Positions 15,164-50,343 of a stretch of 64,000 bases of DNA are shown one piece after another; the stretch's first letter is position 1; each line of letters opens with the position of its first letter. Source of the DNA: Conexivisphaerales archaeon (lineage in GTDB: Archaea > Thermoproteota > Nitrososphaeria > Conexivisphaerales > DTJL01). Where the stretch lies: contig JAVYTR010000005.1 of NCBI GenBank assembly GCA_038728585.1, positions 30,898 to 94,897 on the forward strand, in the 5' to 3' direction. The notes beneath the pieces were generated by a model that saw only the letters and a list, made by a program, of their open reading frames with translations, had not been told where the DNA came from and did not search any database. The position numbers and the translations under genes were made by a program.

Positions 15164-15200
15164 AGACACTGGTATTGAAGATATATAGAGGAGTGATTAC

Positions 15201-16172: not shown

Positions 16173-16179
16173 AAGTATA

Positions 16180-17019
16180 TTGCAACTAACCTTCCTCAGG
16201 GCAATACTCAGGGAAAAGGAAGCACTCGCCGGTCTGTTGTTGCTGTCTCCAATAATACTTGCCGCGCTCTTTGCAAATTTCATTGCACCATACAACCCCC
16301 TGCTCTACTCTTCTGCCGCACCCCTGCAGCCTCCTTCACCTTCGCACCTTATGGGTACTGACCAGACTGGTGGAGACATCTTTAGCCAAGTGGTTTACGG
16401 AGCCAGGGTCGCTCTATATGTTGCTACAGGTTCTGTAGCCCTTTCGGTCATAATCGCCGTGATAGCTGGGCTCTCTTCAGGTTACATAGGCGGTCTAGCT
16501 GGAGATGCCATAATGAGAATAGCAGACCTCATACTATCGATACCATCATTTGTCCTGATAATACTTGTGGTCGTCCTGTTCGGGAGCAAACTGACGACAA
16601 TACTTCTGATAATAGCTCTTGTCTCGTGGCCCACTCTGGCAAGAATAATAAGGGCAGAGGTACTTTCACTTAAAGAAAGGGAATTTGTCCTAGCCGCAAA
16701 GGCTACTGGAGCGGGTTCGCTGAACCTTATGTTCGACGAGATCCTGCCCAACATATGGTTCAAGCTTATGCCAGCAGTAACGCTGCAGGCGGGGCTTGCA
16801 GTAGTAGTGGAGGCAGGGATAAGTTTTCTTGGCCTGGGGGACCCGAACGCCAGCAGCTGGGGAAGGACTCTTATGTTCGCTTACCAGTCGGTCTATTCTG
16901 GGGCTTGGTGGGGAATACTCTTTCCAACTGTATCGATAGTGATGACGGTTATCGGCTTCAACCTGCTGGGGGAGGGTATATCGAAGGCGCTATCACCCAA
17001 AATTGCAAGCAATGAGTAG
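16180..17019 (+). CDS. dppC: peptide ABC transporter permease DppC
   Basis: A 279-residue permease of the DppC/OppC family: FIAPYNPLLYSSAAPLQPPS then HLMGTDQTGGDIFSQVVYGA is the diagnostic periplasm-side motif, and the EAA loop reads EREFVLAAKATGAG. About six transmembrane helices follow the family plan. The start appears to be TTG 16180; the nearby ATG at 16169 opens only a short out-of-frame peptide. It is translated from the same mRNA as dppB and ends 42 bases before the convergent dppF stop. Confidence 0.92.
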   Translation: MQLTFLRAILREKEALAGLLLLSPIILAALFANFIAPYNPLLYSSAAPLQPPSPSHLMGTDQTGGDIFSQVVYGARVALYVATGSVALSVIIAVIAGLSSGYIGGLAGDAIMRIADLILSIPSFVLIILVVVLFGSKLTTILLIIALVSWPTLARIIRAEVLSLKEREFVLAAKATGAGSLNLMFDEILPNIWFKLMPAVTLQAGLAVVVEAGISFLGLGDPNASSWGRTLMFAYQSVYSGAWWGILFPTVSIVMTVIGFNLLGEGISKALSPKIASNE

Positions 17020-17061
17020 GCGTGAGACGAGAGATAAGCAGCAAACCGAGCTTGTTCTCTG

Positions 17062-18063
17062 CTATTCACCACGCCTTCCAGAGATGCCTGAGTTTATCAC
17101 AGGACAGGCCACAAAATGGCCACCATCATACTCATCAAGTGAAGGTTCAACCTTCCTGCATGATTCTATTGCAAACGGACATCTCGGATGAAACCTGCAA
17201 CCCGAAGGTATGCTGATTATAGAGGGAACGTCGCCAGATGCAGGAGGGCTCTCGACCCATTCCCTTGAAGCTGGGTCACCTGAAGGATAAGACTTCAGCA
17301 GGCTGATCGTATAAGGATGCCTAGGATTAAGGAGAACCGTGTCCACAGGCCCGTATTCCACCACTTTTCCAAGATAGATAACGATCACCTCTGCACATAT
17401 CTCCCTGACCACGTACATGTCGTGAGTTATGAAGATGTAGGTGAGGCCGTACCTGCTCTGCAGGTCTTTCATCAACCTTATCGTCTGAGCTTGTATTGTG
17501 GCGTCAAGACCAGAAAAGGGCTCATCGGCTATCACCAGCTTCGGCCTTAGAGCAAGGGCCCTTGCTATGAGGACCCTCTGTCTCTGGCCGCCACTCAGCT
17601 CGTGAGGAAATCTGTGCATGTATTTTGACGCAGGACTCAAACCTACATCCTCAAGTAGTCTCTCAATTTCCCTCTGGTCATGAGGTATATTGTGTATTTT
17701 GAACGGCTTTTCCAGTATCTGCTGGATAGTCTTCATCGGGTTCAGTGCAGAATAGGGGTCCTGAAATATGGGCTGAACCAGTCTTGCCAGCTCCCTTCTT
17801 TTGAGCGAAGTTAGCTCCTTTCCTTCTATCAGCACCTTTCCCTGCGAAACTTCTGCTATGCCACAGAGCATTCTTCCTATCGTCGTCTTTCCGCAACCAC
17901 TCTCACCGACTATAGCCAGATTTCTACCTCTTCTCAGTTTCAGGTTTACACCGTCAACAGCCTTAGCTCTCAGTTTGACCCCAAACCTGCTCTGCCTTAC
18001 GGAATAGAATTTGCAAAGTCCATCCGCCTGCAATAGAAAGTCTCCTTCAGCCATCTGCATCAC
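17062..18063 (-). CDS. dppF: peptide ABC transporter ATP-binding protein DppF
   Basis: This 333-residue ATPase has Walker A GESGCGKTT, the Q-loop QDPYSALNP, signature LSGGQRQR, Walker B LVIADEPFS, and the oligopeptide-transporter C-terminal domain with CRFHPRCPFA and later cysteines. Known: DppD/DppF form a heterodimer that drives DppBC; the C-terminal cysteine cluster in this subfamily can hold an Fe-S centre. The frame opens at GTG 18063, overlapping the dppD stop; ATG 18054 (MAEGDF) is an equally good start. It faces dppC convergently. Confidence 0.92.
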   Translation of the reverse strand: MMQMAEGDFLLQADGLCKFYSVRQSRFGVKLRAKAVDGVNLKLRRGRNLAIVGESGCGKTTIGRMLCGIAEVSQGKVLIEGKELTSLKRRELARLVQPIFQDPYSALNPMKTIQQILEKPFKIHNIPHDQREIERLLEDVGLSPASKYMHRFPHELSGGQRQRVLIARALALRPKLVIADEPFSGLDATIQAQTIRLMKDLQSRYGLTYIFITHDMYVVREICAEVIVIYLGKVVEYGPVDTVLLNPRHPYTISLLKSYPSGDPASREWVESPPASGDVPSIISIPSGCRFHPRCPFAIESCRKVEPSLDEYDGGHFVACPVINSGISGRRGE

Positions 18064-19052
18064 TATTTCACACTCTCTTCATAAAGCCAGCAGTAGACTC
18101 TGGAATTTTCTCCGAACCTTACTTCTTTCGGGTCAAGTCTGCATCGCTCGAAAGCATGAAGGCATCTGGACATGAACCTGCACCCCATTGGAGGATTATG
18201 CAGGTCCGGGAGGCCACCTGCGGTCTGATACCCCTCATCGGTCTGGTTGTTTATTCCGCTGGACTTCATCAACAACCTGGTGTACGGATGCATCGGTTGC
18301 GAGAAGATATCTGCAACGTTTCTCTCCTCAGCAATCTTCCCGGCATAAAGCGTTATCACTCTGTCAGCCATGCCGCTTACGACCCGTAAATCATGGGATA
18401 TCAGCAGCATAGCCATATTCAGCTCACCGCATAGGTTCTTTAGCAGATGAAGGATCTGGGCCTGTATTGTCAGGTCAAGGCTTGTAGTAGGTTCATCAGC
18501 TATGAGAAGAGCCGGATTATTTGATATTGCTATTGCAATGCAGACCCGTTGGGCCATGCCACCGCTCAGCTGGTGAGGGTAGTAATTGTAGACCCTTGCC
18601 GGGTCAGGTATCCTTACCCTCCTGAGCATCTCTAAGGCTCTTGATTTAGCTTCGTCCTTTGTAACATCGTTGTGCAAGAGTATGCTTTCCGCAACTTGGT
18701 CACCTATCTTCAGGACAGGGTTAAGATAAGAAACGGGCTCCTGAAAAACCATTGCAATCTTTGACCCCATCAGTCTCCTTAGCATGTCGCGGGGCTTACC
18801 TGCCAGCTCCTTTCCTTCAAACCTAATCGAGCCACCCAGCATCTTTGCTGAAGGAGGGAGCAACCCCATAATCGAGAGGCCTATGGTGCTCTTGCCGGAA
18901 CCAGATTCTCCTACCAGCGCGACCACCTCTCCCCTGTCAATCTCAAAAGAGACATCTTCTACAGCTCTGAGCTCTCCTTTCTTTGACCTGTAGACTACAG
19001 TAAGCCCTGTTATGGAGAGGAGAGGATTTTCCTTCATTTCTATCGATGACAC
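18063..19052 (-). CDS. dppD: peptide ABC transporter ATP-binding protein DppD
   Basis: A 329-residue ATPase paired with DppF: Walker A GESGSGKST, Q-loop FQEPVSYLNP, signature LSGGMAQR, Walker B LLIADEPTT, H-loop ISHDLRV, then the oligopeptide C-terminal domain with CRFMSRCLHA. The most upstream start is GTG 19052. Gene order on the minus strand is dppA, dppD, dppF with a 63-base gap after dppA and an overlap with dppF, so the three are probably one operon opposite to dppBC. Confidence 0.92.
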   Translation of the reverse strand: MSSIEMKENPLLSITGLTVVYRSKKGELRAVEDVSFEIDRGEVVALVGESGSGKSTIGLSIMGLLPPSAKMLGGSIRFEGKELAGKPRDMLRRLMGSKIAMVFQEPVSYLNPVLKIGDQVAESILLHNDVTKDEAKSRALEMLRRVRIPDPARVYNYYPHQLSGGMAQRVCIAIAISNNPALLIADEPTTSLDLTIQAQILHLLKNLCGELNMAMLLISHDLRVVSGMADRVITLYAGKIAEERNVADIFSQPMHPYTRLLMKSSGINNQTDEGYQTAGGLPDLHNPPMGCRFMSRCLHAFERCRLDPKEVRFGENSRVYCWLYEESVK

Positions 19053-19115
19053 CCAGTCTCCGAGGAGGCAAAATAAAAAATTGTGAAGTTTATTACTTTT
19101 TCCCTGTTCGGTTTC

Positions 19116-20846
19116 TCACTGACTTGGCGCTGTCTGCTGCTGCAAAGGTTGCCTTGTTCTCCTTCTCAATAAAGCAACTGCTGCTATGAGGACCACTATA
19201 ACCACTACAACAGCGGCTACAACAACGTATGTGATGTTCGATGAAGCCTGCTGAGAAGGTTGTGCAGATAGAGAATATACGTTAGCAAGACTGTCCCAGA
19301 ATACGTACTTTCCGACCGGGATCGACGAGCCAGCAAAGTTTGTATTTACAGCATTTATCCAGATATCAGCATAGAGGGGTATCTCAGGCAGGTCCTTGCT
19401 CAGCTGTACTTCTATCTGCTGAAGCAGGCTAACCTGCTGAGAAGGCTGGCTGGTGACGAGCCATTGGTTGAATAGAGAATCGGTCGTGCTGCTGTTATAA
19501 AAGAAGTTGTTCGTAAACGGCCCCTTTCCTATCCAAGCGCTGTCGAAGAGCTGGTACGTCCAGATAGGGGAAAGCCAGTATGAGGTTACTGCCATCTGGT
19601 ACTGTCCTTTCGCTTCAAGCTGAAGATAGGTTGCGAAGTCAACCGTCTGTATGTTTACGTTTATTCCCACCTGGGCCAAGTAGCTCTTTATCAGCTGGCC
19701 AGCAGTGGCTTCATCAGGAGCACCGGTTCTCTCGAGAAGCTGCAGAGTGAACCTGGTTCCGTTTGATTGGACCGGGTACCCAGCCTGGTCGAGAAGAGAT
19801 TCTGCCCTCTGCACGTTGTACGGATAGCTTACTATATTCGGACTGGGAGTTACAACGCCAGGATCTATTGTATAATCTATTGCCTTGCTTATTCCGTTCG
19901 TCGCTTTGTAAGCTATATCGGTCTTATTCAACGCATAGGCTATGGCCTGTCTTACCAATGGATTCGAGATGTAGGGTGAGTTGAGGTTGAACCATATTGC
20001 AGTCTCGTACGGTGGTCTTGCACTGGGAATGACCTTCACTACTCCTGACTGGTTGAAAGACTGAGCAGCGCTGTAAGGAATACCTCTGAATACATAGTCA
20101 ACCTGCCCGCTCGTTACAGCTGCCTGAAGTGCTGAGGGGTCGTTGATGAACCTTATCGTTATGTTGTCAAGGTATGGCTGGGGGCTTCCCCAGTAGTTTG
20201 GATTCCTGTTCAGCACCATGAAGTTTCCCCTGCTCCACTGAGCCAGCACGAAAGGTCCCGTCCCCACGGGGTTGTTGATGAAGGTGCTCTGCAGGAAGTT
20301 CTGCCCTGCCAGCAGGTGAGCTGGCACGATGGCTGTGTCCAGACCTGCAAACAGCAGCAACTGAACCCCTGGCAAGAACCTGCCTGGCTTTATTATCACG
20401 GTCTGGTCGTTGTTTGTAATGCTGACCGTTGTGTTAGCGAAGTAGAACGCGCCGAATATATCATACTTGCTTATTATCTGTTCGAAAGAGAACTTAACGT
20501 CCTGTGCAGTGAACGGCTGCCCGTCGGACCACTTGACATTTGGTCTCAGGTTGAATATGTAGCTTCCATCCTGCACATTTACAGAGTAACTTTCGGCAAG
20601 GTTGGGGACTATGCTGAGGTTGTCTGAATACGTAAGCAATGACTGAAGTATCTGGGCATCTACGAACCCATTATTCCACGCACCTGTGTATGGATTCAGG
20701 GTTGTGGGTTCAGAGACCAGGTTAACTACGAAATTACCTCCTTGATTTACTGCATCTGCCTGATTTGTGCCAAAGATCGTAAGGCTTGAAACTGAAAGTA
20801 AAGTAAGAACAAGGAAAAGAAACGATTTCTTGTAGCGATTCGGCAT
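19116..20846 (-). CDS. dppA: peptide ABC transporter substrate-binding protein DppA, membrane-anchored
   Basis: From ATG 20846 this is 576 residues of the SBP_bac_5 family. Seen: a signal segment SFLFLVLTLLSVSSLTIFG near the start, GGNFVVNLVSEPTTLNPYTG, WSDGQPFTAQDVKFSFE, the VRQAIAYALNKTDI helix, and a C-terminal transmembrane anchor VVVAAVVVVIVVLIA followed by LLRRRTRQ. So it is exported and held to the outer face of the membrane by its C-terminus, an archaeal arrangement. TATATAAT (minus strand) at 20861-20868 is the likely TATA. The longer frame to 20975 adds a non-family leader and is rejected. Next to a dipeptidase and epimerase, it most likely binds di- or oligopeptides. Confidence 0.9.
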   Translation of the reverse strand: MPNRYKKSFLFLVLTLLSVSSLTIFGTNQADAVNQGGNFVVNLVSEPTTLNPYTGAWNNGFVDAQILQSLLTYSDNLSIVPNLAESYSVNVQDGSYIFNLRPNVKWSDGQPFTAQDVKFSFEQIISKYDIFGAFYFANTTVSITNNDQTVIIKPGRFLPGVQLLLFAGLDTAIVPAHLLAGQNFLQSTFINNPVGTGPFVLAQWSRGNFMVLNRNPNYWGSPQPYLDNITIRFINDPSALQAAVTSGQVDYVFRGIPYSAAQSFNQSGVVKVIPSARPPYETAIWFNLNSPYISNPLVRQAIAYALNKTDIAYKATNGISKAIDYTIDPGVVTPSPNIVSYPYNVQRAESLLDQAGYPVQSNGTRFTLQLLERTGAPDEATAGQLIKSYLAQVGINVNIQTVDFATYLQLEAKGQYQMAVTSYWLSPIWTYQLFDSAWIGKGPFTNNFFYNSSTTDSLFNQWLVTSQPSQQVSLLQQIEVQLSKDLPEIPLYADIWINAVNTNFAGSSIPVGKYVFWDSLANVYSLSAQPSQQASSNITYVVVAAVVVVIVVLIAAVALLRRRTRQPLQQQTAPSQ

Positions 20847-20940
20847 TGGAGGCAAACCATTATATATGAAGTAGTTAAACTTTATCTGGCAGGTATGTAC
20901 TGAAGCGAAGAGGTTAGCACTGGCAGGGTGAAAATTCGTT

Positions 20941-22017
20941 ATGGCGATACAGTCTGTTGAATGGAAGAGGTACACAACACCTCTCTATGAGCCGTTCAGG
21001 GTAAATTACGGAGTTCATCTTGAATCTGAGCACATTCTGCTCAAGCTTACTGACACAAACGGTCTAACAGGTTTCGGAGATTGCACTCCGCTTTGGTTCT
21101 TCACAGGTGAGACTTGCGACAGCGCAGAGTCGCTGCTAAAGATGCTGGCAAAGAATCTGAAGGGCATCGATGTCTTTGATAGCAGAGCTTTAAGTCGACT
21201 GCTGAACAGCATCCACGGCAACCCTAGCTTTAAGAGCTGCCTGGAGATGGCGTTCTTGGACCTCAGGGCAAAGACTTTGAATACGCAGCTCTGCACACTC
21301 CTTGGAGGAAAGTTCAGAGAAAGTGTAAGGGTCTCATCGGGGATAGGTATGATGCAAGAGAAGCAAGCGGTGAGTGCTGCTATGAAGCTTGTGGAAAGCG
21401 GAATCAGAACCTTCAAGATAAAGGTTGGCGAAAGTACAGACAGGGAGGCTGAAAAGGTCAAGAGTGTCAGAAGAGCAGTCGGTGATGATGTGACAATAAG
21501 AATAGACGCCAATGCTGCCTACAATCCGCGACAGGCGATAAGACTTGGCAGGGCTGTTTCATCTTTCGCTATAGAATACTTTGAGCAGCCAGTGAAAGGG
21601 CACGACCTGGAAGGGCTGAAAGAAGTCAAGAAAGGAATAGACTTTGACGTAATGGCAGACGAAAGCGTACACTCTTCACAGGATGCAATGAGGGTGATAA
21701 ACTTCGATGCTGCAGATCTGATAGGCATCAAACTCGCCAAATGCGGCGGTATAAGGGAGGCCAAGCGGATCATCGAAATAACATCTGCGGTTGACATGCC
21801 TTGTGTGATTATAAGTGCCTTCGAAACGTGGGTGGGGATTTCTGCAAATTTGCACCTAGCTGCAAGTTCGGAGAATTGTACCTACGCAAACGACTTGGCT
21901 CTTTGGACTATTCAGAAGGATGATCTGACAGTAGGTCCAAAGCATGATGGTGACAAACTGTTCCTTGATAGCAGCGCTGGATTGGGAGCTTCTGCAGATA
22001 TACTTTTCAGCAGATGA
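20941..22017 (+). CDS. enolase-superfamily dipeptide epimerase (MLE subgroup)
   Basis: This 358-residue protein keeps all MLE-subgroup residues: the KIK catalytic pair (Lys159, Lys161), metal ligands Asp189 (RIDANAAY), Glu215 (YFEQP) and Asp240 (MADES), and the second catalytic lysine in IKLAK. N-terminal capping domain reads PFRVNYGVH and GDCTPLWFFTGET. Known: relatives are L-Ala-D/L-Glu and other dipeptide epimerases, muconate cycloisomerases and OSBS; the ADES and context favour dipeptide epimerase. It is divergent from dppA with 94 bases between, so one regulator could control both. With dipeptidase and racemase it points to use of peptides with D-residues. Confidence 0.85.
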   Translation: MAIQSVEWKRYTTPLYEPFRVNYGVHLESEHILLKLTDTNGLTGFGDCTPLWFFTGETCDSAESLLKMLAKNLKGIDVFDSRALSRLLNSIHGNPSFKSCLEMAFLDLRAKTLNTQLCTLLGGKFRESVRVSSGIGMMQEKQAVSAAMKLVESGIRTFKIKVGESTDREAEKVKSVRRAVGDDVTIRIDANAAYNPRQAIRLGRAVSSFAIEYFEQPVKGHDLEGLKEVKKGIDFDVMADESVHSSQDAMRVINFDAADLIGIKLAKCGGIREAKRIIEITSAVDMPCVIISAFETWVGISANLHLAASSENCTYANDLALWTIQKDDLTVGPKHDGDKLFLDSSAGLGASADILFSR

Positions 22018-33562: not shown

Positions 33563-33581
33563 TAGGACGAGAGTGTGTATC

Positions 33582-34049
33582 ATGCCGCTCGAGAGGGTAA
33601 AGCTGAAGGAAAGATACAAACCTTCTTTCCCCTCTGCAGAATGGTTCCAAGCCTATGGAGATGAGCTGTCTAGGGACCCAGAGTGGAAGGTGATTGGTAA
33701 GTTCTTCACTTGCACTTATCTTATAGACGTTTCAGGAAATAGATTCATACTTACCTTCGTTGACGGTAAGCTGGTTAATGTCAAGTCAAACCCTCTGATT
33801 GGACCCCTTTACAGCAAGGATGCTTGGGAGTTTGCTGTACGAGCCCCTCTTGACACATGGAAGAAGTTTATGCAGCGTATTCCCCCTGCAAAGTATCATC
33901 ACTTCTTTGCTGTTACAGATGCGAAGACTCCTCAAGGGATGATTGTCGAAGGAAACATGAAAACAGTGTGGCAGAACATTAGGGCACTTACCCACGCAAT
34001 GGAATTCCTACGTACTTTTCACAATATTCATGAGAGGCGACCTTCATAG
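33582..34049 (+). CDS. SCP2-like (sterol carrier) small protein
   Basis: A 155-residue protein with the SCP-2 layout: ITYLIDVSGN/RFILTFVDGKLVNV-like strands (seen as CTYLIDVSGNRFILTF), SKDAWEFAVRAPLDTWKKFM, and a late helix after KTPQGMIVEGNMKTVWQ with the conserved GNxxxxxxN spacing. Known: SCP2 domains bind hydrophobic ligands and are often fused or adjacent to hydrolases or thiolases. ATG 33582 is chosen over GTG 33573. The next gene, an alpha/beta hydrolase, begins at the base after the stop (TAG ATG), so the two are coupled. A role as ligand carrier for the hydrolase is inferred. Confidence 0.7.
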   Translation: MPLERVKLKERYKPSFPSAEWFQAYGDELSRDPEWKVIGKFFTCTYLIDVSGNRFILTFVDGKLVNVKSNPLIGPLYSKDAWEFAVRAPLDTWKKFMQRIPPAKYHHFFAVTDAKTPQGMIVEGNMKTVWQNIRALTHAMEFLRTFHNIHERRPS

Positions 34050-40427: not shown

Positions 40428-40820
40428 ATGGCTGAGAAACTCGTCAAACAAATGGAGAAGAAAAGAGGGTACATCCTCAGGGGCCATCGTGTACTTGCAG
40501 AATACGATTCAAACAAACTCGAATCGTATGATAATTTCTTTAGTAGCGTTATGGTCCGTAAATCTGCACTTAACAGGAAGACAAAGGAACTCATAGCACT
40601 TTCTGTGCTTGCGTCAAGAGGTCTCTTTGATCCTTTCCTGCTGCATGCAGAAAGAGCTTTTAAAGAAGGAGCGAGCATAAACGAAATCATTGATGCAGTA
40701 TGCATATCTGGGCTTTACGCTGGCGCTCCCTCCATGCTCTATGCACTACAGTATCTGGATAAAAAATTTGGAAAAGTAGCAAAAAAGGGAAATAAGCTCT
40801 GGCTAAACTATAAATACTGA
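40428..40820 (+). CDS. carboxymuconolactone decarboxylase (CMD) family protein without CxxC
   Basis: A 130-residue all-helical protein with the CMD core: YDNFFSSVMVRKSALNRKTK, ELIALSVLASRGLFDPFLLH, AERAFKEGASINEIIDAVCI. The AhpD-type CxxC is absent; the segment reads GLFDPFLLHAE, keeping the His and an Asp. So it is not a thiol peroxidase and is closer to true CMD or to uncharacterised members. The opposite-strand frame 40388-40705 is a shadow. It lies just before the BMP importer genes, without clear functional tie. Confidence 0.82.
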   Translation: MAEKLVKQMEKKRGYILRGHRVLAEYDSNKLESYDNFFSSVMVRKSALNRKTKELIALSVLASRGLFDPFLLHAERAFKEGASINEIIDAVCISGLYAGAPSMLYALQYLDKKFGKVAKKGNKLWLNYKY

Positions 40821-40839: not shown

Positions 40840-41907
40840 ATGCGTTCACATCGCTCTGTATCAAGAGTGGCAATAGTTCTAGCTGTCATAGTAGTTGTCG
40901 TCGTGGCAGCAGTAGGTCTGTATTATGTATACGGGACTCAATCAAAGGCACCTACAAGCAAATTCAAAGTAGCGGAAATTATTCCAGGTTATGTAAACGA
41001 CCAGAGCTACGCTGAAGCTGGTTACTTGGCACTTCAAGCCTTAAACAGCTCGGAGCATGTTCCTATAGCCTACACTGAAAATATACTCAGTCCAACAGCT
41101 GCTTTCCAAACCGCGGTGCAACAATACATTAGCGAAGGGTACAATATTATCTATCTGCATGGATCACAATTTGCATCCGCAGTAGGTATTGCTCCGAACT
41201 CCACAGGCTTGGCATCACAGTATCCCAATGTCGAGTTCATAGTGGAAGCTGATACCCCCGGCCCTGTTCCAGTTGCGAAGAACGTCTGGGTTATCGACAG
41301 AAACTTTGCTCCTGGCTTCTACGTATTCGGGGCTCTGGCTGCGCTAGTTACCAATTCGGATAAGGTTGGATTCATAAGCGGGCAGCAGCTGCCATTTAGT
41401 AATGCTGAAGTTAACGCCGCCATTGCTGCGATGAAAACCATCAACCCGAATATCCAGTTCTATAGACAATGGGTGGGCGATTTTACAGACCCAGTTAAAA
41501 CAGGAGCGGCTGCAAGAACAATGATCGGGCTCGGTGTCGACGTCATACTTTCAGACCAGAACCTTGGTAATCCAGGCCTCTTCCAAGCGGTTCAAGGCAC
41601 AAACGTTCTGGTTGCTGTCAAATATACTGACCAGTCCAGTCAGGCACCAAACAATTATCTAACTTCATATCTTTACAATTTCACACCTCCCTTGCTGTAT
41701 GTCTATAACCAGATAGCTTCGGGTCATCTTTCTGGTTATTACAGGATTCCGTTCTCCCCAACCGGAGGCGCTTACATCCAGTTGCCTATCCAGCATGTAA
41801 GTGCCAATGTTCAGACTAGGATACAATCAATAATCAGCGGAATAGTTAATGGCTCAATCCAAGTCCCATGGAACACTACCAATCCTGGTAATGGACCATC
41901 TCTTTGA
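40840..41907 (+). CDS. BMP-family ABC transporter substrate-binding protein
   Basis: A 355-residue lipoprotein-like binding protein with an N-terminal transmembrane anchor (VAIVLAVIVVVVVAAVGLYY, residues ~10-30), then the BMP (PnrA/BmpA) fold: FKVAEIIPGYVNDQSYAEAG, IIYLHGSQFASAV, GFYVFGALAAL, KVGFISGQQLP and VDVILSDQNLGNPG. Known: this family binds nucleosides, purines or related compounds for import. The partner permeases and ATPase are on the opposite strand just downstream (41930-45499) and converge on it. It is 20 bases after the CMD gene and may share its transcript. Ligand residues cannot be read with confidence. Confidence 0.88.
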   Translation: MRSHRSVSRVAIVLAVIVVVVVAAVGLYYVYGTQSKAPTSKFKVAEIIPGYVNDQSYAEAGYLALQALNSSEHVPIAYTENILSPTAAFQTAVQQYISEGYNIIYLHGSQFASAVGIAPNSTGLASQYPNVEFIVEADTPGPVPVAKNVWVIDRNFAPGFYVFGALAALVTNSDKVGFISGQQLPFSNAEVNAAIAAMKTINPNIQFYRQWVGDFTDPVKTGAAARTMIGLGVDVILSDQNLGNPGLFQAVQGTNVLVAVKYTDQSSQAPNNYLTSYLYNFTPPLLYVYNQIASGHLSGYYRIPFSPTGGAYIQLPIQHVSANVQTRIQSIISGIVNGSIQVPWNTTNPGNGPSL

Positions 41908-41929
41908 ATAATAACTTCCACAAGAATTT

Positions 41930-42865
41930 TTATTCCTCTTGCGATTCTCTATCGTAGTTCTTGCCAAGTGCCTGAGGGAGCTCTGCTGTCCTGTACACCT
42001 GTATCAATATTGCGAGAGTAGCTATGAAAGGTGCCATGAGTAAGAAGTCTGCTGGTATGGGCAGATTCAGTAGCTGCCCATATATGCTGAACACATCAAA
42101 CCCGGAGAAGATAAGAGCCGCGAAGAGAGTTTTGATTGGGGCCCAGCCGCCCAGCAATGCCACAGCTATCGATATCCATCCTCTGCCATTCACCAGCGAA
42201 TAAGTGTATGCTCCTGTGTAGAAGAAGGGCAGATAAGCTCCGGCCATGCCTATCAGTGCTGAACCAGCTATGGTAAGCAGATATCTGGTCCTGAATACAT
42301 TTATCCCAAGTGTATCTGCAACTCTCGGTCTCTCTCCGACCGACCTGACCTTCAATCCATAATCAGTTTTGTAAAGCAGGTACCAGATTGCTACTGCCAG
42401 AACGACGCTGAAATAAAATACACCGTTCTGAGAGAAGAGGATCGGTCCTATGTAAGGCAGCCGGGATAGGATAGGAATGTTTACTGGCTGCAGGGTAGGA
42501 ATCCTGGGCACAATGCTGCCCGTTGAGAACGCAAGCTTGTAGGCATAATTTGCAACCCCCTCCCCCATTATGAACAGAGAGAGGCCTACTATAAACTGGT
42601 TCTGCTTAAGCGTTATACAGAAGAATGCTAGAAGCAGTCCAAAAAGTGCTGCGGTCATCGCTCCGCCTAACAAACCTAGAAGAAGATTTCCGTTGGTAAA
42701 ATAGGCGATTAGAAACCCTAAAGACGCACTTGCCTGCATCACCCCTTCGTTAAAGACAAGAAAAACACCTGACCTGCCAGAAAGTACCATTCCAAGTCCT
42801 GACAGGATGTAAACCACACTTGTGCTGAGGACAAAAGAGAAGAAATCAGCTACTGGCTGAGCCAT
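41930..42865 (-). CDS. BMP-type (nucleoside-like) ABC transporter permease, second subunit
   Basis: A 311-residue permease of the BPD_transp_2 family (YufQ/NupQ-like): LSGRSGVFLVFNEGVMQASA, FCITLKQNQFIVGLSLFIMG, and VGERPRVADTLGINVFRTRY before SALIGMAGAYLPFFYTGAYT. About eight to nine transmembrane helices are visible. Last gene of the minus-strand operon ATPase-permease-permease; its start overlaps the previous permease by 16 bases. With that partner it forms the membrane channel for the BMP binding protein encoded convergently. Confidence 0.9.
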   Translation of the reverse strand: MAQPVADFFSFVLSTSVVYILSGLGMVLSGRSGVFLVFNEGVMQASASLGFLIAYFTNGNLLLGLLGGAMTAALFGLLLAFFCITLKQNQFIVGLSLFIMGEGVANYAYKLAFSTGSIVPRIPTLQPVNIPILSRLPYIGPILFSQNGVFYFSVVLAVAIWYLLYKTDYGLKVRSVGERPRVADTLGINVFRTRYLLTIAGSALIGMAGAYLPFFYTGAYTYSLVNGRGWISIAVALLGGWAPIKTLFAALIFSGFDVFSIYGQLLNLPIPADFLLMAPFIATLAILIQVYRTAELPQALGKNYDRESQEE

Positions 42866-43983
42866 CTCTTCACCCTCTCCCTATAAACATTCGCAATGAG
42901 GATAAGCAGAAGGAGTAGAGCCTCTACTATCAGTCCTAAATCTCCTGGTACCCCTAGGGCTCCCTGCATCGCACTTATCCCCACTTCTAGCGCTGATATG
43001 AAGACAGACGCAATCACCACCGCTACAAGATTCCCTTGTCCTATGAGCGCGACTATATAGCTCAGAGCTGCATAATTTGACTGCATTCCGTACTGCAGAC
43101 TGTGCAAAAGACCAGAGACCTGTATGCCTCCTGCCAAGCCTGCAATCCCTCCTCCCGCTATAAGCGATAATGACGATAGCAGGTCAGTCTTCACCCCGAA
43201 GATACGACCGGCCCTCGCGTTAGCCCCAGTAACCCTGAGTTCAAAACCAGAAGAAGTTTTGAACGTAAAAAAGTACACGAGCAACGGCAGGATTATTGCA
43301 AGCAAGATTCCAATATTTACATCTGTCAAGCCTGGTAGGCTTGGTAGGATAAAGGCAGATGATATCTGCCTCGTTTGTGGAAATCCAACTTCCGGGTCTC
43401 TCAAAGAACCGGTAGCTATGTAAAGAACCAAATAGATCGCTATAAAGTTCATCGATATAGTCGAAACTATTTCGTTCACCCTGAACCTGTAGAGCATGAA
43501 AGCTGGGATAGCAGCCCAGGCGGCTCCCGCTAGAATGGCTGCAAATACTTCAACAGTTAGTGCTGCAGCAGGTTGGAGAGATGGCAAGGCTAAAGCTATT
43601 ACCGCTGATGCCATAGCCCCTGCCAGGAATTGTCCTTCGTTGCCTACGTTGTATTTACCAGCTACAAGTGGCACGGTAAATGCCAAAGCCATTAGGAAAA
43701 GAGGTATGAACTCCAGCAACAACAATTGTAAGCTAACTCCTGAGCCAAAGGATGCCTGAAAGAGTATTGCATATCCGCTGAACGGGTCCTTTCCAGCCAA
43801 CGCCAAGAGGATACCGACTGCGGCTAACGCTATCATTCCAGAAAGAAGATATGGAAGAATACTACCGAGATAATCTCCCAGACGTGAATCTGATGTTCTC
43901 GCTTGAGAACCTGCATTCTGCCTGGGCAACTCTTTTTCTTCAACCAAGTTCGCTATTCTCCCGGTTTCTCGTAGAATGGTCAT
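42850..43983 (-). CDS. BMP-type (nucleoside-like) ABC transporter permease, first subunit
   Basis: A 377-residue permease (YufP/NupP-like, BPD_transp_2). Seen: the family motif VPLVAGKYNVGNEGQFLAGA, MLYRFRVNEIVSTISMNFIA, LRVTGANARAGRIFGVKTDL with the coupling region, and GGGIAGLAGGIQVSG. About ten helices. The first ~45 residues are hydrophilic; the frame opens inside the ATPase gene (44-base overlap), so the true start may be slightly further in. It pairs with the downstream permease and upstream ATPase as one importer. Confidence 0.9.
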   Translation of the reverse strand: MTILRETGRIANLVEEKELPRQNAGSQARTSDSRLGDYLGSILPYLLSGMIALAAVGILLALAGKDPFSGYAILFQASFGSGVSLQLLLLEFIPLFLMALAFTVPLVAGKYNVGNEGQFLAGAMASAVIALALPSLQPAAALTVEVFAAILAGAAWAAIPAFMLYRFRVNEIVSTISMNFIAIYLVLYIATGSLRDPEVGFPQTRQISSAFILPSLPGLTDVNIGILLAIILPLLVYFFTFKTSSGFELRVTGANARAGRIFGVKTDLLSSLSLIAGGGIAGLAGGIQVSGLLHSLQYGMQSNYAALSYIVALIGQGNLVAVVIASVFISALEVGISAMQGALGVPGDLGLIVEALLLLLILIANVYRERVKRWLSQ

Positions 43984-45499
43984 CTGCTACGTTTGCCAGC
44001 ATCTTCTTGCCAATTTCATACCTGTCAAAATTATTCCTATCAAAGTTCCCTGTTATTTCTCCCTTTGAGATAACCACTATTCTATCACTTACAGTCATCA
44101 GCTCATCCAAATCTTCTGAAACGAAGAGGATTCCACATCCTTCCCTTTTGAGGTCGATGAACTTGTTCAGTACAAAATTTGTACTTCTTATATCAAGTCC
44201 CCTGGTTGGATTGTGTGCGAGAACGACCCTGGGCTGGACAAGCATGGACCTTGCGAGAAGCAGTTTCTGGATATTGCCTCCAGATAGTTTCCAAGCTGGC
44301 GACGTTATGGTATCGGCTTTGATTTGAAATGTGTCCACTAGGACAGCTGCCTTTGCCCTCATCGTTTCATTATCAAGTAGACCAGCTTTTGCAAACGGTT
44401 CTCTCTTGTGATGCCCAAGAGTTATGTTTTCAGCTATGCTCATTGAAGGAAGAATGCCGTCATAGATTCGGTCCTCTGGGATGTATCTGACTCCAAGCTG
44501 AATAAGCTGTGAGGCATCGAGCGTTGACGCATCCTTTCCCATTATACTCATCTTCCCTGAAGAAGGTTTTCTGACCCCTGCAATTAACTCGATAAGCTCC
44601 TTCTGTCCATTACCAGAGATACCCGCGATGCCCACTATCTCGCCTTCACACAGTATGAGGCTAACTTTCCTCAAAAGATGAACGTTTTTTCTATCTGTAA
44701 CGCTAACATCTTCAAGTTTTACCAGAATGTTGGAAGGATCCTCCGATATCTTCCACGACTCAACCTTAAGAGGCTCTACGGTTTTGTCTCCTATCATCAT
44801 CCTTATGACTTCATCTTCATTGACCTCTTCCTTCTCAAAACTCCCGACAGCCTGTCCGCCCCTCAGTATTGCTATTCGGTCTGCAACTTGCATGACTTCC
44901 TTTATCTTGTGTGTGATGAACACGATTGCAAGTCCACCTTTTACAAGTCTTTTAACCGCTGTGAAGAGTAAGTCAATCTCTTGCGGAGTCAGATTTGTAG
45001 TCGGTTCATCAAGTATCAGAAGACTGGGTCGCCTAAAGATAGCTTTGATTATCTCTACCTTTTGCTGTTCTCCAACTTGCAGTTTTTTGACCTTAACGTC
45101 TAGTGGTACATCAAACCCATAATCAGCTATTATCTGCTGAATAATTTTTCTAGCAGATTCTTCCCTGGCTTTGGTCCCTAAAACTACGTTTTCGTAGACA
45201 CTAAAATTGTCAATGAGCTGGAAATGCTGGTGCACAGCAACAATGCCATGTCGCAAGGCGTCGCTTGGAGATCGAAATACGACTTCCTCATTTTCAATTT
45301 CTATTTTACCTGAATCTGGTTGATAAAGACCGGAGAGTATGTTCATGAGAGTTGTTTTGCCTGCACCGTTCTCGCCTAAAAGAGCAGTTACTTTTCCTTT
45401 CTCGATCTTGAGGCTTACATTGCTCAGTGCTATGTTTGCTCCGAACGATTTGCTTATGTTCTGCATCTTCACGAAACCGTTCTGCATGTATCTAGCCAA
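43940..45499 (-). CDS. BMP-type ABC transporter ATPase with two nucleotide-binding domains
   Basis: This 519-residue protein has two fused ABC domains, as in NupO/RbsA. Domain 1: Walker A GENGAGKTT (near residue 38), HQHFQLIDNFSVYENVV, Walker B LLILDEPTTNLTP. Domain 2: degenerate Walker A GISGNGQKELIELIAG, then signature-like KLSGGNIQK and VVLAHNPTRGLDI. That asymmetry is normal for the family. It leads the operon. The start may be TTG 45499, since AAATATTCATAAAC at 45519-45532 (minus strand) gives a TATA about 25 bases upstream; ATG 45487 is the alternative. Confidence 0.9.
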   Translation of the reverse strand: MARYMQNGFVKMQNISKSFGANIALSNVSLKIEKGKVTALLGENGAGKTTLMNILSGLYQPDSGKIEIENEEVVFRSPSDALRHGIVAVHQHFQLIDNFSVYENVVLGTKAREESARKIIQQIIADYGFDVPLDVKVKKLQVGEQQKVEIIKAIFRRPSLLILDEPTTNLTPQEIDLLFTAVKRLVKGGLAIVFITHKIKEVMQVADRIAILRGGQAVGSFEKEEVNEDEVIRMMIGDKTVEPLKVESWKISEDPSNILVKLEDVSVTDRKNVHLLRKVSLILCEGEIVGIAGISGNGQKELIELIAGVRKPSSGKMSIMGKDASTLDASQLIQLGVRYIPEDRIYDGILPSMSIAENITLGHHKREPFAKAGLLDNETMRAKAAVLVDTFQIKADTITSPAWKLSGGNIQKLLLARSMLVQPRVVLAHNPTRGLDIRSTNFVLNKFIDLKREGCGILFVSEDLDELMTVSDRIVVISKGEITGNFDRNNFDRYEIGKKMLANVADDHSTRNRENSELG

Positions 45500-45547
45500 G
45501 CCGGACCGACTCGTTTATGAATATTTCTAACTAGCAACCTATTCGTG

Positions 45548-46432
45548 CTAGATTCTCTTTCCTTCAATAAATTCTGAGGCTATTTGACTAAGGGTTGAAA
45601 ACCTCACTCTTTCATGTCTTTTTATGTAATTTATTAAGCGTTCAAGCAAAGGCAGGACATGAGGCCTAGCAGAAACGTCCGGATGTATAGTTAGACATAG
45701 GCATCCGTATCTTTCGACTTTAAAGAGATAGTCGAAGTGTGCCTTGTAGATACCATACATTACTTCAGGCGAAGTATAGCCATAGTTATAGGATGGATGC
45801 TTGATGAACATCATCGGAGGAAGGTCATCAAGATACCAACTGACAGGTATTTCTACTAGGTTCACCTCCTTTCCAAACTCAAAAGGCTTCATCCATGTTT
45901 CCGGGTCTTTTGTGTAGTCTATCTTGTACCATCTGTCACCACTCCTCAATCTATAAGGGTGAAATTCGTCGGCCATCATACTGCTGTCGTACATAAAATT
46001 ATGCTTGAGAAGCAGGTCAACAGTATTCTCGCTGAATTCCCACCACGGAGCTCTGTAACCAACAGGCTTGTTTCCAGATAATTCTTCGCAGAGTTTGGAT
46101 GTTTTGATAAGTATCTTCTCCTCCTGCTCCCTGTTCAGCCTGGTAGGATTTTCATGAGAATAACCATGGGGTTCAATCTCATGCCCCAAGTCCGCAACTT
46201 TCCTCAGGTTAACCTTGAACGTCTCTGCAGAATGACCGGGAACGAACCACGTCGTTTTTATCTTCTGCCTTTCAAAAAGGTCAAGTAGTCTTAGGGTCCC
46301 TATCTTTCCTGCGAATTCTCCTCTCGACAAGTCGCTCGGGGAATTTTCTCCTCCGTAAGAGCCAAGCCAACCTGCTATAGCATCAACATCTACCGTTATA
46401 GCCACTTTTATAACTTCAGCTTGTTTCGGCAT
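45548..46432 (-). CDS. polysaccharide deacetylase-family hydrolase (HP0310/PuuE-like)
   Basis: A 294-residue NodB-fold enzyme of the branch that includes H. pylori HP0310 and allantoinase PuuE: catalytic and metal Asp in TVDVDAIAGWLGSYGGE, metal histidines in EPHGYSHENPT, GYRAPWWEFS with the Arg, and a late His in LTIHPDVSARP. No signal peptide, so it is cytosolic. Known: this branch hydrolyses cyclic amides or imides and N-acyl groups rather than cell-wall glycans. Next to a nucleoside-like importer and a beta-keto-acid cleavage enzyme, a cyclic amide such as a pyrimidine, hydantoin or purine breakdown product is a plausible substrate (inference). Divergent from the BKACE gene. Confidence 0.83.
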   Translation of the reverse strand: MPKQAEVIKVAITVDVDAIAGWLGSYGGENSPSDLSRGEFAGKIGTLRLLDLFERQKIKTTWFVPGHSAETFKVNLRKVADLGHEIEPHGYSHENPTRLNREQEEKILIKTSKLCEELSGNKPVGYRAPWWEFSENTVDLLLKHNFMYDSSMMADEFHPYRLRSGDRWYKIDYTKDPETWMKPFEFGKEVNLVEIPVSWYLDDLPPMMFIKHPSYNYGYTSPEVMYGIYKAHFDYLFKVERYGCLCLTIHPDVSARPHVLPLLERLINYIKRHERVRFSTLSQIASEFIEGKRI

Positions 46433-46514
46433 TAAGCACCGTTGACCGAGCCCGCATTAAAATCTTTTTTATCCAAGTAAAATTAAATACCTAACACCAG
46501 ATGCAAGTTCTGCG

Positions 46515-47369
46515 ATGAATCTACCCTCGAGTAAGGTGATCATAACAGCAACGGTGGCTCCTACTTGGGTCTTTGTTCCTGAAATTCGTAATGTAGTTGA
46601 GGAAAAATGGAGACAGACAACAGAAAGCTTGGTCTCTGAGATAGTTGCGTGCAGAAACGCTGGAGCAGCAATAGTGCACGTTCATGGCAATGCACCTTGG
46701 AGTCGCGACAAATGGCAACAGGTCATCCAAGGTGTAAGGTCTGCGACGGACATACTGATTCAGGTCGGACTCTCAGGAAGGCCGATGGAGGAGAGAAGAG
46801 AACTGTTAGACTTGAAGCCTGATATGTGTTCTGTCAGATTGACACACTCGGACGAAAGATATACTGTCCACTCCGCAAACCTCCTCCATACTATGGACGA
46901 GATAAAGGAATATCTTTTGCTTTGCAGAGAAAAGAAGGTCAAGCCTGAACTTGAGTGTCATAACGAAGGTGCTCTGTGGAACCTTAATTACATACTGGGC
47001 AAAGGATGGCTCGAGCTTCCAGCCTTCTTGACCTTGTTCTTGGGATGGCCTGGTGGCACATGGACTCCACCCACTATGGAGGAGCTGATAAGTAGGGTAA
47101 AGCTTGTGCCAAAGGGCTGCATATACCAGACCAGCATTATGCCCGACAATCCTGAAGACGGCGCAAATTCACCGTTTAATTTGTCTTTGCTTACAGTAAT
47201 GCTTGGAGGGCATGTAAGAGTTGGTACTGAAGATTACCCATACATACATGACAAGACACCAGCCAAAGATGCATCCGAGCTCGTTCGCAGGATAGCTGAT
47301 GGTATAAGAGCGCTCGGCAAAGGTATAGCTACCCCTGAAGAAGCTAGAACTATACTTGGCTTAGGGTAG
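46515..47369 (+). CDS. BKACE family beta-keto acid cleavage enzyme (DUF849)
   Basis: This 284-residue TIM-barrel protein has the BKACE zinc site His55 and His57 (IVHVHGNAP) and the late Glu in VRVGTEDYPYI, plus PELECHNEG and LFLGWPGGTWTPP. Known: BKACE enzymes (e.g. Kce) condense a beta-keto acid with acetyl-CoA to give an acyl-CoA and acetoacetate. The HVHGN form differs slightly from the common HVHxR, so the substrate may be unusual. AATTAAATA at 46481-46489 gives a leaderless start at ATG 46515. It heads an operon with the MFS permease and AMDase-like gene. Confidence 0.88.
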   Translation: MNLPSSKVIITATVAPTWVFVPEIRNVVEEKWRQTTESLVSEIVACRNAGAAIVHVHGNAPWSRDKWQQVIQGVRSATDILIQVGLSGRPMEERRELLDLKPDMCSVRLTHSDERYTVHSANLLHTMDEIKEYLLLCREKKVKPELECHNEGALWNLNYILGKGWLELPAFLTLFLGWPGGTWTPPTMEELISRVKLVPKGCIYQTSIMPDNPEDGANSPFNLSLLTVMLGGHVRVGTEDYPYIHDKTPAKDASELVRRIADGIRALGKGIATPEEARTILGLG

Positions 47370-47407
47370 GCATATCTGCCTAACATCTCCTGCTCAGATG
47401 TTATAAG

Positions 47408-48598
47408 TTGAGAAATCAGACATCATCCAAGCTGGGTGAAGCACTTTCAGTCTTAGTACTAGCTCTAAGTATGTCAGAGGGGCTGATTGTAGCATATGAT
47501 TACTCACCTTTGGCGCTCAAAATAGCTTCGGACCTTCGCCTCTCCTACACGGACATAGGGCTTCTTCAGACTTGCCTCTTCGTTCCTTTCATGATCTTGC
47601 AGATACCTGCAGGATTACTCGCAGACAGGTACAGCTCGAAGAGACTAATTTTGCTCTCAATGCCGCTTATGCTGCTTTCAGCCGCACTGTTTGCACTCTC
47701 CAATTCAGAGTCGATTCTCCTCTTCAGCAGAGTGTTAAGCGGTATCTCTCTTGGGATGATGTTCGTCCCAGTGATAAGGTACCTGTTAATGTCGATAGGC
47801 GGGTTCGCCCCTGGACTTTCGCTGGGGATCCTGGCAAGTATGCAGGCAGCTGGCTCGGTAGTTGCATCTTTCGCTCCAGCGATACTGGCTGATATGACGG
47901 GTAGCTGGAGAACCGCATTGATGCTTTTGGCCTCCCCTTTGGCATTACTATTCTTTCTTCTCCTGCCGATAAAAGAGAGTCAAACCAATACCAACAGGCT
48001 TAGCGTAACAGAAAGTGTAAAAGGAATATTGTCAAATAAGACCAGTTGGGTTTTGGGCTTCGACAACTTCGTCAGATTTGGAATAGTTTTACTGTTAACA
48101 ACTTGGGTCCCCTCATATTTGATGGACAGGTTCTCATACCAGCTCTTACCAGCTTCTGAAACACTGGGAATCATGTGGATAATGGCAGCCATCTCTTCCC
48201 TGTTAGGGGGATACATAACTGATAAAGAGAGAGGAGCCTTCTATGTCATAGAAGCAGGCCTCCTCCTCACGTCACTGTTTCTTTTTCTTGTCCCAAGAGC
48301 CAACAGCTCTATTATAACGGAGATAATACTTCCGATTCTGGGAGGAGCAATGTACCTTGCCTTCTCACCAATGTTTTCTCTTCTGCCTTCCTTAATAGGC
48401 AGGCAGAACCCCGGTTTTGTATCTGGAGTCCAGAATACCTTTGCTACATTCGGTGCTGCTGTGTTTCCTTTCATGATGGGATATCTGAGAGACATAACAG
48501 GTGGCTTTGATTACGGCTGGTCAGTCTCTGCATTGCTGACACTGGTAGCAGCTCTGGTATCCATGCAGTTATCTAGTTCGTTAAGAAGGGGTGTTTAA
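47408..48598 (+). CDS. MFS transporter
   Basis: A 396-residue, 12-helix major facilitator. Seen: VLVLALSMSEGLIVAYDYSP in helix 1, the loop 2-3 signature GLLADRYSSKRLI, FSRVLSGISLGMMFVPVIR, and FVSGVQNTFATFGAAVFPFM in the second half. It resembles anion:cation symporters for organic acids more than drug pumps. It lies 38 bases after the BKACE gene and overlaps the longest version of the next frame, so all three are probably co-transcribed. It starts at TTG 47408 as the only early option. Substrate unknown; a keto or dicarboxylic acid is reasonable from its neighbours. Confidence 0.87.
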   Translation: MRNQTSSKLGEALSVLVLALSMSEGLIVAYDYSPLALKIASDLRLSYTDIGLLQTCLFVPFMILQIPAGLLADRYSSKRLILLSMPLMLLSAALFALSNSESILLFSRVLSGISLGMMFVPVIRYLLMSIGGFAPGLSLGILASMQAAGSVVASFAPAILADMTGSWRTALMLLASPLALLFFLLLPIKESQTNTNRLSVTESVKGILSNKTSWVLGFDNFVRFGIVLLLTTWVPSYLMDRFSYQLLPASETLGIMWIMAAISSLLGGYITDKERGAFYVIEAGLLLTSLFLFLVPRANSSIITEIILPILGGAMYLAFSPMFSLLPSLIGRQNPGFVSGVQNTFATFGAAVFPFMMGYLRDITGGFDYGWSVSALLTLVAALVSMQLSSSLRRGV

Positions 48599-48614
48599 GT
48601 GGAAGCTGGGAGAC

Positions 48615-49349
48615 ATGAGTAGAAAGTACAAAATAGGCGTAATAACACCGTCCTCGAACACCACACTGGAGCCTATACTTTATGAGATACTGAAACATAC
48701 AAGATTCACTGCTCATTTTTCCCGGTTCAAGGTAAGAAATCTCAGCCTTGAAAGGGAAGACCTAGAGCAATTCAGCATCGAGAATATGTTGGTCCCAGCT
48801 TCTTTACTTGCTGATGCGCATGTTGATGTAATAGCTTGGTTCGGAACATCGGGAGGCTGGCTGGGCTTCGATAACGACATTAATCTATGCAGGCGAATCG
48901 AAGATAGGCTAGGAATCCCCGCTGTAACTGCAACACTAGCTACAGTCGACGCAATGGCTATGCTGAAGATTAGGAATTACTCACTGGTAGTTCCATACGA
49001 AGAAGACTTGACGAAGAAGATAATTGACAACTTTGGAAAGGCGGGTTATAGTGTGAGCAATGTAAAACACCTCAACCTAAGAGATAATGTAGTTGTGGGG
49101 AGTGTTCCTACCACGCGTATAGCTAAAATAGTTACTGATACATCAGCAAATTCTGACTGTATTCTGGTATACTGTACGAACTTCTCCGTTGCAACAATGG
49201 TCGAAGAACTTGAGAAGAAGACAAGAATACCTATACTTGATAGCATAAATGTGACGCTTTGGGGGTGCATGAAGAAGCTAGGGATTAGAAGTGGCATCAA
49301 GGGATATGGAATGCTTCTTGCAGGGCGCAGACCTCGGTTCTGGTCTTAA
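48615..49349 (+). CDS. arylmalonate decarboxylase/maleate isomerase family protein, single-Cys type
   Basis: From ATG 48615, after a GGGAG Shine-Dalgarno, this is 244 residues of the Asp/Glu racemase superfamily: IGVITPSSNTTLEP is the maleate isomerase/AMDase start. The first catalytic position reads WFGTSGGW with Gly77-Thr78-Ser79, and the second is Cys187 in LVYCTNFS. Known: maleate isomerases and racemases have Cys at both sites, while AMDase has Gly74 (GTS) and Cys188. So this protein has the decarboxylase layout. An alternative start at 48591 would add eight residues. It ends the BKACE/MFS operon; decarboxylation of a malonate-type acid is inferred. Confidence 0.8.
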   Translation: MSRKYKIGVITPSSNTTLEPILYEILKHTRFTAHFSRFKVRNLSLEREDLEQFSIENMLVPASLLADAHVDVIAWFGTSGGWLGFDNDINLCRRIEDRLGIPAVTATLATVDAMAMLKIRNYSLVVPYEEDLTKKIIDNFGKAGYSVSNVKHLNLRDNVVVGSVPTTRIAKIVTDTSANSDCILVYCTNFSVATMVEELEKKTRIPILDSINVTLWGCMKKLGIRSGIKGYGMLLAGRRPRFWS

Positions 49350-49583: not shown

Positions 49584-49973
49584 TTGACTAGGCCACTGGA
49601 GAATCTGGCAAAGAGAAAGGCAAGCGGTGGAACAATAATTCCATACAGAGGGAGAAGAAAGTTTGAATACGATGGATTTGCACTGGAAACCATTCAGGGG
49701 ACACAGACAGTTCTGACAAGAAGGGTAAGGGGGGGTAACTTAAAAGTAGGTCTTGTCAAGGCTGAATTTGCAAACGTTGTAAACCCTCAGGACAAGACAA
49801 CCAAGAAGGTAAGGATTCTTAGAGTCATATCGAACAGGGCAAACAGGGACTACGAAAGAAGAGGCGTGATAACAAAGGGGGCAATGATCGAAACAGAGCT
49901 CGGTATTGCCAGGGTGACTTCAAGACCTTCTCAGCATGGGGTTGTAAACGCAATCCTGCAGCCCAAGAAATGA
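49584..49973 (+). CDS. rps8e: 30S ribosomal protein S8e
   Basis: A 129-residue ribosomal protein with the S8e pattern: TRPLENLAKRKASGGTIIPY and RGRRKFEYDG, then TKKVRILRVISNRANRDYER, RGVITKGAMIETELGIARVT and SRPSQHGVVNAIL. Length is normal for archaeal S8e. The start is TTG 49584; no ATG or GTG keeps the conserved beginning. It opens the dense housekeeping block and is followed 49 bases later by SRP19. Confidence 0.95.
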   Translation: MTRPLENLAKRKASGGTIIPYRGRRKFEYDGFALETIQGTQTVLTRRVRGGNLKVGLVKAEFANVVNPQDKTTKKVRILRVISNRANRDYERRGVITKGAMIETELGIARVTSRPSQHGVVNAILQPKK

Positions 49974-50022
49974 AATAGTTCAACTTAACTCCTTATAATC
50001 AGGCATTATCCTAGTCAAAACC

Positions 50023-50343
50023 ATGAAGGATTACGATAAGCTCATCCTCTGGCTTGACTATTTTGACAGCAATATTCCCAGAGCCAGAGGCAGAAGAATA
50101 CCCAATCATGCAGCAGTGAAGGGTCCATCTCTTGAAGAACTTGCTCTGGCTGCCAGGAGACTTGGCCTGGAGCCGGAGGTGCAGCAGGCAAGAAGACCCT
50201 CCTCCAGAAGGATCACAGGGTTCATACAGGTGAAGAAGACGATGAAGAAGGGTGAACTGATCAAGAGGCTTACTGCAGAGCTTGCAAAGGTGAGGTCTGA
50301 AACTAGGAAGGCTGATGATAAAGGCAAGCAATCCCAGCAATGA
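50023..50343 (+). CDS. srp19: signal recognition particle 19 kDa protein
   Basis: A 106-residue SRP19: LILWLDYFDSNIPRARGRRI with the conserved Arg-rich loop that binds SRP RNA, SLEELALAARRLGLEPEVQ, and KTMKKGELIKRLTAELAKVR. Known: it binds helices 6 and 8 of 7S RNA and prepares them for SRP54. Length is slightly long because of a basic/Gln tail. TTATAATC at 49993-50000 lies about 26 bases before ATG 50023, so leaderless. The next gene is Gar1, another RNP protein. Confidence 0.93.
   Translation: MKDYDKLILWLDYFDSNIPRARGRRIPNHAAVKGPSLEELALAARRLGLEPEVQQARRPSSRRITGFIQVKKTMKKGELIKRLTAELAKVRSETRKADDKGKQSQQ

Follow-up and report, generated by a model that had tools for sequence, protein, structure and literature searches.

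The stretch of DNA analysed here, referred to as the window, is 64,000 nucleotides long (G000:C5:30898-94897) and comes from an archaeal genome of 1.93 Mb that is 99.6% complete, possibly that of a relative of the Nitrososphaeria that does not oxidise ammonia. It contains a group of genes (Table 1) in which the initial annotation saw a possible route for the uptake and degradation of a cyclic amide. All of the open reading frames named there are present and intact, and the family assignments were confirmed, since each Pfam score is far above the curated cut-off. The divergent and convergent operons described also agree with the coordinates and strands. A CMD-family gene and the gene of a BMP-type solute-binding protein lie on the forward strand and converge on four reverse-strand genes, in the order imidase-ATPase-permease 2-permease 1, which are followed by the divergent forward-strand genes DUF849-MFS-AMD. 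We use imidase and AMD as short names for the HP0310/HxnM-type hydrolase and the AMDase-like protein.

Table 1. Features of the locus, numbered from the first nucleotide of the window.
Feature	Position	Strand	Evidence or remark
CMD-family (carboxymuconolactone decarboxylase/AhpD-like) gene	40428..40820	+	PF02627, 43.9 bits
BMP/PnrA-type solute-binding protein, N-terminal membrane anchor	40840..41907	+	PF02608, 107.6 bits (cut-off 24.1)
ABC permease 1	41930..42865	-	BPD_transp_2 (~100 bits); 63% to G001 orthologue
ABC permease 2	42850..43983	-	BPD_transp_2 (~100 bits); 52% to G001 orthologue
Double ABC ATPase of BMP importer	43940..45499	-	ABC_tran, 180.8 bits; 48% to G001 orthologue
HP0310/HxnM-type cyclic-imide-hydrolase homologue	45548..46432	-	Polysacc_deac_1, 57.1 bits (cut-off 23.1); phmmer 3qbu
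82-bp AT-rich intergenic region, imidase and BKACE starts	46433..46514		between divergent operons
DUF849/BKACE-family protein	46515..47369	+	PF05853 (BKACE), 153.6 bits (cut-off 24.8)
MFS permease, organic-acid (galactonate/phosphoglycerate)-like	47408..48598	+	MFS_1, 130 bits (cut-off 33.4)
AMDase-like protein, single-Cys GTSxxWLG...CTN subfamily	48591..49349	+	PF17645 (Amdase), 76.6 bits (cut-off 25.9)
S8e + SRP19 core genes, right boundary, outside module	49584..50343	+	synteny in G001, G002

The imidase gene is the first gene of the ABC-transporter operon on the reverse strand (41930-46432); it is separated from the ATPase gene by 48 nt, and the ATPase and permease 2 genes overlap, as do the two permease genes. 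On the forward strand (46515-49349), 38 nt lie between the DUF849 and MFS genes, and the MFS and AMD genes overlap by 8 nt. Because the gaps are short and genes overlap, we infer that the two sets are likely to be transcribed as two operons, and the spacer between them could hold putative back-to-back promoters. The CMD-family gene ends only 19 nt ahead of the BMP gene and is possibly its operon partner. With the MFS permease, all subfamily models scored below their cut-offs.

Directly after the AMD gene come the core genes S8e-SRP19-TFB. In G001, a genome of the sister genus, and in G002 the S8e core genes are preceded by SMC-, ScpA- and ScpB-like genes in place of the AMD gene, while in G003 the order downstream of S8e is kept; no genes of the catabolic block were found near S8e in any of these three genomes. 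On these grounds the site is judged to be rearranged in the window genome. The GC content across the region (0.40-0.49) does not mark the cluster off and gives no sign of recent insertion.

Three further regions of the window were noted. Positions 12548-22017 carry dipeptidase-like, Asp/Glu-racemase-like, nitroreductase-like, Dpp-type ABC importer and enolase-superfamily-like genes and appear to be a separate D-amino-acid or dipeptide island; the dipeptidase-like and racemase-like pair is also found together in G001, with 86 and 59% identity (L064). A 158-aa reading frame with no Pfam match (33573-34049) is flanked by genes for an MFS protein and an alpha/beta hydrolase, with which it probably forms one operon. 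Positions 7793-9070 are a mobile element, judged by eye to encode a TnpB-like transposon protein whose zinc-finger motif is close to the C-terminal end.

The hydrolase had been placed on an HP0310/PuuE branch, and of this the HP0310 half stands. Its best relative of solved structure is HP0310 (3qbu), with homology over the full length (phmmer E=1.7e-104), while the PuuE entries gave about 1e-13 to 1e-14. With the residue numbers taken from PMC3084791, the metal and catalytic residues Asp12, Asp14, His86, His90 and His247 are all kept in the alignment to 3qbu, and the Trp127-Trp128 lid, the mark of a closed small-molecule pocket, is kept as APWWEFS. HP0310 was described as an atypical member of its family, with a small molecule as its probable ligand; its structure has no solvent-accessible polysaccharide groove, the Trp lid closes the pocket, and the protein was inactive on typical substrates (PMC3084791). 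Esterase and deacetylase activities on crude peptidoglycan and acetylated xylan have, however, been published for HP0310 elsewhere (PMC3688963), so more than one class of substrate has been put forward for the family. HP0310 is also the closest structural homologue of HxnM, an enzyme of the Aspergillus nicotinate pathway that shares 64% identity with a cyclic imide hydrolase homologue of P. putida and whose proposed role, deduced from the metabolites of mutants, is to open the ring of 3-hydroxypiperidine-2,6-dione (PMC9304392). The window protein can thus be kept as a predicted cyclic-amide hydrolase-like enzyme, in the sense of a homologue of small-molecule cyclic-amide hydrolases.

It is very improbable that the hydrolase is a PuuE-type allantoinase working in allantoin breakdown in a purine route. 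The two share a Pfam family and are structurally near enzyme classes, and genes for an XDH-like enzyme and for AllG (an oxamate carbamoyltransferase subunit) are present in the genome, but the allantoinase model TIGR03212 scored 62.5 where its cut-off is 424.6, the match to HP0310 is far closer, and a remote second family member (C2:184553) is already accompanied by XDH-like and adenine-deaminase-like genes. That second member lies in a dense locus (G000:C2:179000-191500, L040) which by sequence appearance is devoted to purines and pyrimidines and also contains dihydroorotase-like and aspartate-carbamoyltransferase-like genes and several amidohydrolases. Although HP0310 was originally named as one, a deacetylase of cell walls or polysaccharides is hardly to be expected despite the activities on peptidoglycan and xylan, and was rejected: HP0310 has no accessible groove and was inactive on typical substrates in the structure paper, the window sequence has no visible signal peptide, and relatives in other genomes are neighboured by amidases and base permeases. 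To our knowledge, Archaea have no peptidoglycan, which counts against it as well.

These neighbourhoods were then compared. A strong imidase homologue is present in 8 of 398 genomes of the phylum, the window genome included, and in the tree three archaeal imidases with 59-63% identity group with the window protein with modest support (88/90). Five imidase loci (L032-L036, 49-63% identity), from genomes of four Thermoproteota families, all contain a dihydropyrimidinase, a CN hydrolase and an M20 hydrolase and are pyrimidine/ureide clusters; PreA and an NCS1 permease occur in three of them and an asparaginase in two. We found no description of an HP0310-type imidase within such archaeal clusters in the literature searched. 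Twelve more loci were read in ten plasmids and two named genomes. In 16 of the resulting 17 the fetched flanks hold a gene for a linear amidase, an asparaginase, a carbamoylase or a CN hydrolase, and none of 10 control windows taken from five of the plasmids does; the loci are best hits, partly picked for existing annotation, and the bacterial ones are hand-picked plasmid records and a non-random sample, which makes the fractions purely descriptive, with no p-value attached. A single-protein scan of the named genomes gave two relatives only. The window cluster itself has no amidase, unlike nearly all of these loci. Overall, the genome context points to the HP0310 'peptidoglycan deacetylase' family being cyclic-imide/ureide hydrolases partnered with amidases in both bacteria and archaea.

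In the AMD protein the first catalytic residue is Gly, within a Gly-Thr-Ser run, and the second is Cys (CTN). Gly with a single Cys is the arrangement of AMDase, whereas in racemases and maleate isomerases both positions are Cys (PMC4996985). When compared with AMDase position by position, the protein has the single Cys188, Gly74 replacing the second Cys, and Thr75-Ser76; at Pro14-Pro15 it has PS instead of PP, Gly189 is replaced by Thr, and the NCBIfam AMDase model gave 65 against a cut-off of 225. Because Pro15 and Gly189 are missing, we do not file it as an AMDase sensu stricto, and the former label 'malonate-type decarboxylase-like' holds for the single-Cys G-T-S arrangement and not for the remaining AMDase features. 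The Gly-Thr and Cys-Thr-Asn motifs are common to all 13 aligned members of the AMD subfamily, and two Cys were seen in all 12 AMD homologues that were aligned from the phylum's other genomes; the single-Cys subfamily and the two-Cys archaeal set each form one group in the tree with 100/100 support. Since AMD-family matches at E<=1e-20 occur in 25 of 349 genomes of the phylum, the window genome included, and twelve other archaeal homologues were aligned out of these 25 matching genomes, we do not claim that the single-Cys form is unique in archaea.

The best match of solved structure is a maleate isomerase (E=2e-16), which would suggest a nicotinate/maleamate-type route, but Cys occupies both catalytic positions in that enzyme, Gly is at the first one here and the tree sets the subfamily apart, and we rejected this very improbable assignment. 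The neighbours of the family lead in another direction. A hydantoinase/amidohydrolase or HP0310-type gene is present in 11 of 12 bacterial single-Cys AMD loci, B. glumae being the exception; five of these loci additionally have a hydantoin-racemase-like gene, and two (L031 and L067) have the HP0310-type gene itself. Through these repeated cyclic-amide hydrolase neighbours the proposed link between the AMDase-like family and cyclic amides is borne out. The single-Cys AMDase-like subfamily can therefore be defined and tied to hydantoinase clusters, and its reaction is open to assay.

In the alignment of the DUF849 protein to Kce, with residue numbers that we take to be those of Kce, the metal ligands His46, His48 and Glu230 are kept, together with Glu143, Arg226 and Asp231. 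The Ser82 STGG substrate loop, by alignment to Kce and relatives, carries a short deletion, which is common to a Sinorhizobium homologue and not to two archaeal homologues. Within DUF849, several groups have been reported not to act as BKACEs, one of them showing decarboxylation activity (PMC4922564); the family also takes in cis-epoxysuccinate hydrolases. As the loop is deleted and the family includes such groups, C-C cleavage of beta-keto acids is doubtful for this protein, and of the BKACE assignment the family fold and metal ligands stand.

Of the homologues of the BMP protein with a solved structure, AtzT is the nearest; it binds guanine or 2-hydroxyatrazine (PMC6834077). The aromatic residues that sandwich the ring in AtzT (Tyr45, Trp194) are also aromatic here (Tyr57, Phe215), and the residues that hydrogen-bond the base are not kept (Phe186 at the position of Glu165, and the Asn220 position not aligned to Asn). 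This weakly suggests a planar ligand. A putative B6 ABC transporter of NCBIfam was also considered and rejected, as the scores of 55/400, 178/465, 157/400 and 457/670 are all below the equivalog cut-offs. In G001 an orthologous importer set was found in the same arrangement (58, 63, 52 and 48% identity). The imidase, DUF849, MFS and AMD genes are absent beside it and no CMD match lies near; it is flanked on one side by a gene of the isochorismatase family and on the other by genes that by eye are CitE-, acyl-CoA-dehydrogenase- and CoA-transferase-like. We also noticed a second BMP importer that adjoins an amidohydrolase both in the window genome (C1:266520-272622, L066) and in G001 (L065), the two amidohydrolases being 72% identical. 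BMP importers thus recur next to C-N hydrolases, without one fixed enzyme.

For the missing linear amide step, candidates are present in the genome, although unlinked to the cluster. A dihydropyrimidinase (43% identical to that of L032) adjoins a CN hydrolase that is split between the ends of contigs C8 and C11, and because the two halves lie at the contig ends these contigs are probably adjacent. An NCS1 permease, a cyclase, an XDH-like enzyme and AllG are close by, and one amidase and one asparaginase-family gene occur elsewhere. The ureide/pyrimidine island around this junction (G000:C8:74400-83405 and G000:C11:1-3300; L127, L128) has AllG beside a CoA-ligase-domain FdrA-like gene, with XDH-like subunits besides the dihydropyrimidinase and NCS1.

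We see about an even chance that the locus is a lineage-specific peripheral module for the uptake and catabolism of a small cyclic amide (an imide or ureide), with a substrate that is plausibly related to pyrimidines or hydantoins. The BMP-type ABC importer would take in a planar N-heterocycle, and the HP0310-type metal hydrolase would open the ring by C-N hydrolysis, with a carbamoyl acid or half-amide as the product. The remaining nitrogen would be stripped by a linear amidase or carbamoylase, for which the CN hydrolase at the C8/C11 junction is a candidate; the DUF849-MFS-AMD operon would move and break down the resulting acid, and the single-Cys AMD enzyme may decarboxylate it or otherwise act at the alpha carbon. 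The cyclic-amide reading is well supported for the imidase and the AMD protein, because of the HP0310 residues and amidase neighbours of the former and the hydantoinase neighbours of the subfamily of the latter; it is plausible for the importer and unsupported for the DUF849 protein. That all of them serve a single pathway is a weaker claim, drawn from the gene layout in one genome.

The strongest rival, a less probable one that still deserves serious consideration, is that two unrelated modules stand side by side and share only the divergent promoter region: a base/nucleoside-type salvage importer operon with an acquired imidase, and an independent carboxylic-acid operon of DUF849, MFS and AMD. 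It is favoured by the importer of G001, conserved alone next to isochorismatase-family and acyl-CoA-type genes, and by the rearranged site, where the juxtaposition may be accidental; with the importer of G001 standing apart from the enzymes, joint inheritance of the whole set is not supported. At no other locus examined did a DUF849 or BMP gene lie near an imidase or AMD gene, and for DUF849 and the imidase this too favours two modules. An unlinked distribution in relatives, which the initial annotation had named beforehand as evidence against its pathway, is therefore seen in part. Against two separate modules, the imidase and AMD families are linked in the bacterial loci L031 and L067 and share amide-hydrolase genes as a neighbour theme. 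In the titles and abstracts of the literature on archaeal cyclic-imide catabolism and pyrimidine degradation we found no direct description of such a gene set, and the locus is plausibly a lineage-specific new combination of known parts. If the cyclic-amide module is real, the breakdown of small cyclic amides by ring opening would be a new capacity for a little-known archaeal lineage.

Among known systems, AtzT/PnrA-like BMP proteins resemble the importer component in family and in the aromatic ring-sandwich positions, but the guanine hydrogen-bonding residues are not kept here. Arylmalonate decarboxylase (B. bronchiseptica type, PF17645) shares with the AMD protein Gly74-Thr75-Ser76 and the single catalytic Cys188 position; the AMD protein differs from it in lacking Pro15 and Gly189, in the PSSN motif of the isomerase side and in the NCBIfam score (65/225). 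The bacterial hydantoinase clusters of Arthrobacter ZXY-2, Azospirillum, Paracoccus, Diaphorobacter and Cupriavidus have a gene of the same AMD subfamily (36-43% identity), an importer near several of them and, in all except B. glumae, a cyclic-amide hydrolase close by; they differ in having no DUF849 or BMP gene, and the place of the HP0310-type imidase is mostly taken by HydA-type enzymes, which hydantoin-racemase-like proteins often accompany. The group of HP0310 (HpPgdA, 3qbu), HxnM and the P. putida YZ-26 imidase is alike in full-length homology to HP0310, in the catalytic residues and Trp-Trp lid, and in the amidases near relatives, whereas the window imidase leads a BMP-type ABC importer operon in a cluster without an amidase. 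The Thermoproteota pyrimidine/ureide clusters share an imidase 49-63% identical to that of the window, but there it is clustered with dihydropyrimidinase, CN hydrolase and M20 genes (and PreA and NCS1 in three), which in the window genome are on other contigs, whereas the neighbours of the window imidase are the BMP importer, DUF849, MFS and AMD genes.
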